A stretch of DNA of 64,000 nucleotides from Pedobacter xixiisoli (GTDB lineage Bacteria > Bacteroidota > Bacteroidia > Sphingobacteriales > Sphingobacteriaceae), in the NCBI RefSeq assembly GCF_900215335.1, contig NZ_OCMT01000004.1, positions 558,001 to 622,000 of the forward strand, read 5' to 3'. Positions 14,720-39,484 of this stretch are shown here, in pieces. A program made the position numbers and the translations under genes. The first letter of the stretch is position 1; each line of letters starts with the position of its first letter. A model generated the notes under the pieces. The model was not told where the DNA came from and did not search any database. It worked only from the letters and a program-made list of their open reading frames with translations.

Positions 14720-14780
14720 AGCGCTTGTTTATTGCATTGTTTTTAGTGTAATAAACCCGATTGAAGCGGTTGTACTTTTT

Positions 14781-14813
14781 TGTCGCAGATGCTTCGACAG
14801 GCTCAGCATGACA
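14781..14813. repeat. Small palindromic intergenic repeat
   Basis: Begins TGTCGCAGATGC and ends GCTCAGCATGACA, an imperfect palindrome. Sequences like gcttcgacaggctcagcatgaca are, to my knowledge, frequent dispersed repeats in Bacteroidota. It lies in the 168-base gap before prfA. Confidence 0.45.
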
Positions 14814-14887
14814 CCAACAAAAAAGACAAGAGTGTAAAGCGGGGCTTGCTTTAATTGGAGTAATAATATTGATTTTCTTATAAAAAT

Positions 14888-37087: not shown

Positions 37088-38374
37088 TTATAAACCGAAA
37101 GCAGCTTTTACTTGGTCAACGTAATCTAATTTCTCCCAAGTAAATAACTCAACAGTAACTGTTTTTTCTTCACCATTTGGCGATTTGAAAGTTTTAGTCA
37201 CCGTTTCCGACTGGCGTCCCATGTGCCCGTAAGCTGCAGTTTCGCTATAAATTGGATTTCTTAATTTCAAACGTTGCTCAATAAAGTAAGGACGCATGTC
37301 GAAAATGCCTTCTACTTTTTTGCTAATTTCTCCGTCAGTTAAATCAACTTTTGAAGTGCCGTAAGTCACTACATTAATAGAAGTTGGTTTTGCTACACCA
37401 ATAGCATAAGAAACTTGAACCAAAACTTCATCTGCTAAGCCAGCAGCAACTAAATTTTTTGCAATATGGCGTGTGGCATAAGCAGCACTTCTATCTACTT
37501 TACTCGGATCTTTTCCAGAGAATGCACCGCCACCGTGGGCACCTTTACCACCGTAAGTATCTACAATGATTTTTCTGCCTGTTAAACCAGTATCACCGTG
37601 TGGACCGCCTATCACAAACACGCCAGTTGGGTTAATGTGATAAGTGATATTATCATTAAATAAATGTGCGTATTGTGGGTATTTAGCTTTAACTCTTGGA
37701 ATTAAAATAGATACTAAATCACTTTTAATTTTAACCAACATCTCGTCGTTTGCTGCATCTTTATCCGCTCTCGAATCAGATTTAGCCTTCACAAAGTCAT
37801 CATGTTGAGTAGAAATTACAATTGCGTCAATTCTCTGTGGCTGGTTATCATCAGCATATTCTAAGGTAACTTGAGATTTCGCATCTGGACGTAGATAAGT
37901 AATATCAGCATTCTCTCTTCTCAAAACTGCTAATTCTCTTAATAAAGCGTGAGATAAATCAAGCGCCAATGGCATATAATTTTCAGTCTCGTTAGTTGCA
38001 TAACCGAACATCATACCTTGGTCGCCAGCACCTTGCTCTTCTTTATTAGTTCTATCTACACCTTGGTTAATGTCTTGAGATTGCTCATGGATCGCAGAAA
38101 GTACACCACAAGAATTAGCCTCAAACATATATTCACTTTTAGTGTAACCAATTTTCTTGATTACATCTCTAGCAATTTGCTGTACATCTAAGTAAGTTTT
38201 AGATTTTACTTCGCCCGCTAAAATCACCTGACCTGTAGTTACCAAGGTCTCACAAGCTACTTTAGACTCTGGGTCAAACGCTAGGAAATTATCGATTAAT
38301 GCATCCGAAATTTGGTCAGCAATTTTGTCTGGATGACCTTCAGATACAGATTCTGATGTAAATAAATACGACAT
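37088..38374 (-). CDS. metK: S-adenosylmethionine synthetase
   Basis: 428 residues, near normal length. N-terminal [22 protein letters not shown] binds ATP/methionine; [12 protein letters not shown] and [18 protein letters not shown] are the other signatures. The enzyme makes SAM from ATP and methionine in the cytosol. A candidate SAM-II-type riboswitch lies 80-156 bases upstream on the same strand, which would give feedback control by the product. Confidence 0.97.
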
Positions 38375-38454
38375 TTTAATTTTTTATTAAAATAAACAAA
38401 ACAATAAAAGTTAAAATGGCAAAGACCCCTTAAAGGTTGTAAATAGAAGTGTAG

Positions 38455-38530
38455 AAATACATTAGCACTTTTTTTTACGTGGTTGCAATCAGTACCGATA
38501 CAATCGGAATTAGCAAATCAATCCACTTTA
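38455..38530 (-). promoter_or_regulatory. Candidate SAM-II-type (long-loop) riboswitch upstream of metK
   Basis: Read on the minus strand: P1 arm GTGG, then TTGATTTG, then a hairpin CCGAT-TGT-ATCGG, then CTGATTGCAA, the second P1 arm CCAC, then GTAAAAAAAAGTGCTAATG. The order and bases (GAUUU, UUGCAA before the closing P1 arm, AAA run, GCUAA) follow the SAM-II aptamer, with one added hairpin in the first loop as in long-loop variants. Known aptamers bind SAM and lower expression. Assigned by eye; no covariance model was run. Confidence 0.6.
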
Positions 38531-38599
38531 ACGCCGCAAAACTAACACAATAAATTTTAATACTCAAAAATTATCGATTATTTTGTGCGCTAATTATTT

Positions 38600-39484
38600 A
38601 TGTCGGTAAACAAGTCAAATATCCTCTTCATCATTAACCCAATTTCTGGCGGAAAAAAGAAATCGAGTTTGCCTTCTTTGATAGACCAACATCTTGATAA
38701 GGATAAGTTTGCACCGATATATGCTTTTACAGAATACGTAGGTCATGCTTCAGAATTGGCCGAAGAGGCTGAAAGGAAAAATTACGACATCATTGTTGCT
38801 GTTGGTGGCGATGGAACTATCAACGAGGTAGCCAGCAAGTTGGTTCATAGCGATAAAATTTTGGCAATTATTCCCTTTGGTTCTGGCAATGGATTGGCTA
38901 GGTTTCTAAATATTCCGCTCAGCTCTAAAAAAGCTATCGAATTAATTAACTCAGGTAAACCTCAGGTAATAGATACTGCGGAACTTAATGGAAAGAAGTT
39001 TTTCAATATGGCTGGTATGGGTTTCGATGCTCATTTGAGCTCAGTTTTTGCAGGAAATAAAAAAAGAGGCCTAAAAAGTTATGTAGAGCTGGGTTTTAAA
39101 GAAATTACCACCTATAAAGCGCAGCCTTATCATATAGAAATAGATGGGGTTAGTTATGATAAAGACGCATTTGCCATCAGTATTGCCAACTCTTCTCAAT
39201 ACGGAAATAATGTGTACATCTCTCCAAAGTCTTCTTTAACAGATGGTTATTTGGATGTTTGTATCATCCATCCAATTTCCTTAGTAAAATTGCCGATGTT
39301 GGCTTTTCAGATGATTACCGCAAAAACACACCAATCTAGTTTGGTGAAAATCATTAGAGGAAAACACATCAAAATACAAAGACAGGCACCAGATGCAGTC
39401 CATTTAGATGGCGAACCTTTGCAATTGGGCGAGCAATTAGAAATAAAAATCGTTCCGGCATCGTTAAAGATCATAAGCAATTAA
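38600..39484 (+). CDS. Diacylglycerol/lipid kinase (DagK/YegS family)
   Basis: 294 residues. The nucleotide loop GGDGTINEV is near 74-82, with IPFGSGNGLARFL next, typical of the DAGK catalytic family. The N-terminal INPISGGKK is the other family block. A late LDGEPLQLG fits the lipid kinase C-terminal beta domain. It phosphorylates diacylglycerol or a related lipid. Divergent from metK. Confidence 0.9.
   Translation: MSVNKSNILFIINPISGGKKKSSLPSLIDQHLDKDKFAPIYAFTEYVGHASELAEEAERKNYDIIVAVGGDGTINEVASKLVHSDKILAIIPFGSGNGLARFLNIPLSSKKAIELINSGKPQVIDTAELNGKKFFNMAGMGFDAHLSSVFAGNKKRGLKSYVELGFKEITTYKAQPYHIEIDGVSYDKDAFAISIANSSQYGNNVYISPKSSLTDGYLDVCIIHPISLVKLPMLAFQMITAKTHQSSLVKIIRGKHIKIQRQAPDAVHLDGEPLQLGEQLEIKIVPASLKIISN

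Follow-up and report, generated by a model that had tools for sequence, protein, structure and literature searches.

A long-loop SAM-II aptamer ahead of metK in Pedobacter xixiisoli, with a possible start-codon-hiding platform in its leader

A long-loop SAM-II aptamer very likely forms the very 5′ end of the metK mRNA of Pedobacter xixiisoli, where, in its SAM-bound state, it would lower the output of SAM synthetase. The element was analyzed within a stretch of 64,000 nucleotides of the genome, called the window below. When SAM is plentiful, it would bind the P1/P2 pseudoknot of this RNA and lower production of the enzyme, as expected for feedback repression; we infer from the sequence that the aptamer binds SAM and represses metK. 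The feature is an ordinary member of the described SAM-II long-loop family.

When the whole window was compared with Rfam by cmscan, the covariance model RF01726, SAM-II (long loop), matched positions 38532-38452 of the minus strand over its full length (model positions 1-60 of 60), at 45.8 bits compared with a gathering score of 44. This match (E = 1.5e-5, with the 64-kb window searched against the 4227 families of Rfam) is one of three in the window that exceed the gathering score of their family. In the whole genome of the organism, RF01726 gives this one match only (E = 2.8e-7), and a second copy was not found at E ≤ 0.001. A permissive Rfam scan of 301 bases returned RF01726 at 7.1e-8, plus four weak matches to unrelated families; no other SAM riboswitch model was among these five matches at E up to 10. 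The SAM-V model was likewise absent from these five matches. The score lies 1.8 bits over the cut-off and is hence modest, with short-loop relatives reaching up to 71.5 bits. Loop 1 of the window's aptamer has an insert of 23 nt where the model has 3, and nothing places this RNA outside the family.

The gene directly downstream, metK (37088-38374, minus strand), encodes a methionine adenosyltransferase (SAM synthetase) of 428 amino acids (TIGR01034, 4.8e-150, 499.7 bits, cut-off 309.4). Its AUG (38374-38372) lies 77 nt from the end of the aptamer match. By tblastn, metK follows the aptamer in all 80 loci of a set made up of 79 relatives and the window, with the start codon 50-160 nt from the end of the match, and the same is true of all 81 loci of a genus set, 21 of which are common to both. 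The relatives in the family search were hand-picked from the long-loop matches listed, so that weak matches are under-represented, and 20 of its 21 same-genus loci were fetched (G482 was left out); L141, a filler among the relatives, was unused. A further 60 genus loci, mostly lower-scoring, were picked out of 142 matching genomes; dropping one duplicate and then the 17-nt leader L182 left 80 and then 79 distinct genus leaders. Genomes with an RF01726 match number 142 of 145 in the genus (64 of the 145 over the cut-off, 78 of the 142 matches below it), 189 of 201 in the family (153 over the cut-off), and 44 of the 295 sampled from the class (38 above it), under stricter filters that can miss weak matches in these large sets. 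A SAM-II RNA ahead of metK is thus near universal in the genus and family. MetK used as a query against plasmids returned 167 records, the best at 73.1% identity, none bearing on the riboswitch.

The score alone is modest, and it is the conservation of the aptamer in place before metK that settles its identity as RF01726. The slim margin over the cut-off would also suit a match by chance, or a leader that is conserved but has lost its SAM sensing. We consider either very improbable, as the core letters are invariant across loci whose flanks and loop vary and as the aptamer is kept in nearly every genome of the genus that was scanned. The earlier note had proposed a SAM-II-like riboswitch before metK, and this reading is borne out by an RF01726 match over the gathering score, by metK directly downstream, by a loop hairpin that is kept by compensatory changes, and by two-sided change of P1 in four class-level relatives.

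The elements of the aptamer follow one another on the minus strand. The covariance alignment places the P1 5′ arm, GUGG (GTGG in the DNA), at 38523-38526 and the P1 3′ arm, CCAC, at 38479-38482; the GATTTG block (38519-38514), the TTGCAA block (38488-38483), the A run (38476-38469), and the GCTAA block (38466-38462) were read in the sequence. All of these blocks had been reported beforehand in this order, and all were found, the covariance match (38532-38452) being slightly wider than the region first proposed. P1 is paired in all 80 parsed loci, and its two arms change together: GUGG/CCAC is present in 76 loci and GAGG/CCUC in four class-level relatives.

The proposed 5-bp hairpin within loop 1, CCGAT (38507-38503) with ATCGG (38499-38495), is present as the predicted stem CCGAU-UGU-AUCGG (38495-38507, minus strand), and its letters differ between relatives while the pairing is kept. 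An insert in loop 1 occurs in 76 of the 80 loci, and all 76 inserts fold into a stem (mean z of -1.84 relative to shuffles of each insert; z below -1 in 59); the window's own hairpin, with a z of -1.2, is not unusual alone. Alignments were made of 18 and of 8 hand-picked loci out of the 81 in the genus set, and covariation was counted on the 8, which are close relatives, against a structure named by hand. In that alignment, four of the seven pairs of the loop insert show two-sided changes. For the whole named structure, 94.7% of cells are paired, a value reached by 1 of 500 shuffles, as compared with 30-47% for slid versions of the structure, and its covariation score is reached by 2 of 500 shuffles. 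Because two-sided changes keep the pairing, the loop hairpin is a stem that is maintained while its sequence and length vary, and it most likely just closes off loop 1 and leaves the ligand core unchanged.

The 5′ strand of pseudoknot P2, AUUGCA (38484-38489), is nearly invariant and pairs, in a pairing named by hand, with positions 38467-38461. These hold the 3′ strand UGCUAAU (38461-38467, minus strand), which includes the conserved GCUAA block and was placed by the covariance and hand alignments. In the eight sequences, P2 (AUUGCA with UGC(U)AAU) has 97.9% of cells paired and five of six pairs that never vary, so it offers no covariation for or against the pairing; such near-invariance would be expected for a ligand core. 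In L212, L218, L224, L230, and L231, the UUGCAA core is altered to UUGCUA or UUGCUG, and an A-U pair at the margin of the pseudoknot is thereby broken, as seen for L230. In four class-level relatives with SAM-II before metK (L135-L138), loop 1 is short and long inserts, which look like two hairpins, sit instead between the P1 3′ arm and the A run, a second place in which the aptamer accepts inserts.

The novelty implied by the earlier note, which called SAM-II before metK in Bacteroidota with a longer loop less described, is not supported. SAM-II RNAs were reported from Bacteroidetes in 2007 (PMC2258182), and “SAM-II long loops” from Bacteroidetes and marine samples appear as a named motif of 2010, with RF01726 as its own Rfam model (Table 1 of PMC2864571). 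The window's element has in common with that motif its phylum, its cis-regulatory position, its long L1, and a full-length match to the model. The P1 stem, the pseudoknot, and a downstream gene of SAM or methionine-cycle function are also common to the SAM-II RNAs of Sinorhizobium meliloti metA and metZ (PMC9373788). The alphaproteobacterial SAM-II RNAs of that source have a Shine-Dalgarno sequence inside the riboswitch or a terminator after it, whereas the window has 77 nt between match and AUG and no terminator-like site was found there. SAM-V, which occurs in marine alphaproteobacteria and Bacteroidetes, has a related H-type pseudoknot and triplex (PMC6061858).

Just upstream of the aptamer, the sequence TAGTTTTG (38537-38544, minus strand) fits the motif TAnnTTTG, and a TTG (38567-38565) lies 20 nt upstream of it. 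We take TAnnTTTG to be the -7 element of Bacteroidota promoters. Of the 80 loci, 71 have the motif directly 5′ of the aptamer, compared with a mean of 1.7 and a maximum of 6 in shuffles of the same stretch. Based on this placement, the aptamer is probably the start of the transcript.

A SAM-II aptamer in this position could act on transcription, SAM binding leading to a terminator before metK, and most alpha- and beta-proteobacterial SAM-II riboswitches are linked to predicted terminators (PMC2258182). We hold this to be unlikely here, since a scan of both strands of 38300-38700, which may not model all Bacteroidota modes of termination, showed no terminator-like site; a terminator platform was rejected on this basis.

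The leader between the aptamer and metK contains strands that could instead serve control of translation. The candidate switching strand S, CCAUUUUAAC (38410-38419, minus strand), can pair at each of its 10 positions with the aptamer 5′ arm GUUAAAGUGG (38532-38523), which consists of the 5′ flank of the aptamer plus the P1 arm. In the window, none of 200 shuffles gives a pairing as stable as GUUAAAGUGG/CCAUUUUAAC, and the arm-leader pairing probability is 0.84. The start-region strand UAAUAAAAAAUUAAAAUG (38372-38389, minus strand), which includes the metK AUG, pairs with CAUUUUAA-C-UUUUAUUG (38418-38402); S and the bases that follow it make 16 pairs with the 18 bases through the AUG, with one small internal loop, and 5% of dinucleotide shuffles are as stable. 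The pairings of S with the 5′ arm and with the start region are mutually exclusive, and the former also excludes P1. Without SAM, the 5′ arm GUUAAAGUGG would pair with CCAUUUUAAC and hold it off the start codon; with SAM, the arm would be locked in P1, and the freed CCAUUUUAAC would pair across the metK AUG and block translation. When the aptamer is held formed, predicted exposure of the window's start site falls from 0.51 to 0.32, a change as large in 4.3% of shuffles; the leader fold as a whole is not unusual (z of -1.35). In genus leaders such as L190 and L206, inspection by eye also showed a small hairpin of the type CCUGUUUNCAGG whose stem letters vary; it is degenerate in the window (38436-38426).

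Across the genus, 34 of 79 distinct leaders have a start-region stem at p ≤ 0.05 compared with about 4 expected, and the stem reaches the AUG in 72 of the 79; p-values of this kind for the platform are optimistic, as S was picked from these very leaders and related sequences entered the counts as if independent. One register of the start stem is shared by 29 leaders, and two of its columns swap U-A and A-U. When the aptamer is held formed, predicted start exposure falls by a mean of 0.08 compared with 0.004 in dinucleotide shuffles (53 of 79 leaders above their own shuffles), and it moves the wrong way by more than 0.05 in 6 of the 79. In 20 of 80 distinct genus leaders, pairing with the aptamer 5′ arm passes p ≤ 0.05, and aptamer-leader pairing reaches this level relative to shuffles in 16 of the 20 fetched genus loci. 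On these modeled folds, we would put a start-codon-hiding platform that works through CCAUUUUAAC at roughly an even chance for the genus.

Translational control could also depend on a competing structure other than the 5′ arm, either the aptamer 3′ end or a linker hairpin. The leader strand CACUUCUAUUUAC (38439-38451, minus strand) can pair with the aptamer linker GUAAAAAAAAGUG (38478-38466), and this competing hairpin belongs to the window's minimum-energy fold; inspection by eye shows it in many genus leaders that resemble the window's. Of the 80 distinct genus leaders, 27 have a pairing with the aptamer 3′ end at p ≤ 0.05, and a matching change of AAGUG/CACUU to AAUUG/CAAUU occurs among them. 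In the window, however, the 3′-end pairing is weak (fractions of 0.31 and 0.32 of shuffles are as stable) and the 5′-arm pairing is perfect, so the aptamer 3′ end was rejected as the window's own competing stem, and we hold a platform built on the 3′ end or the linker hairpin, and not on the 5′ arm, to be less likely than not. In most of the leaders L062-L081, L172-L174, and L177, the aptamer 3′ end has a competing stem with the leader (for example, AAAGUGCUAA with UUAGCACUUU in L062), which shifts jointly with AAUUG/CAAUU.

Because 3′-end pairing and 5′-arm pairing are each found in a sizable share of the 80 leaders, more than one competing strand seems, on the modeled pairings, to be used in the genus. 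It is possible, if somewhat less than an even prospect, that one genus combines the same SAM-II aptamer with at least two competing-strand platforms, one that captures the aptamer 3′ end and one of the window's type, in which a strand common to the 5′ arm and the AUG would sequester the start codon. Two platforms in one genus, if true, would show that the platform turns over while the aptamer stays fixed. Across the wider set of 80 loci, the start-accessibility effect is absent (mean of -0.0005, Wilcoxon p of 0.10), so start-site hiding was rejected as a family-wide rule and the platform is at best a genus-level feature.

The hosts concerned are bacteria that use little Shine-Dalgarno pairing. 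The start-codon model offers a concrete account of possible SAM-II control of translation across 77 nt in Bacteroidota. In the titles and abstract openings of the literature searched, we found no description of an expression platform for SAM-II of Bacteroidota. We propose the start-codon platform that shares CCAUUUUAAC as new relative to that literature, the aptamer family being already known; the analysis adds to that family the promoter placement, the covariation of the loop insert, and a start-codon model that can be tested.

Elsewhere in the window, cmscan placed a Flavo-1 RNA (RF01705), a candidate RNA of Bacteroidetes listed in Table 1 of PMC2864571, at 14749-14850 of the plus strand, with 42.5 bits compared with a gathering score of 42.
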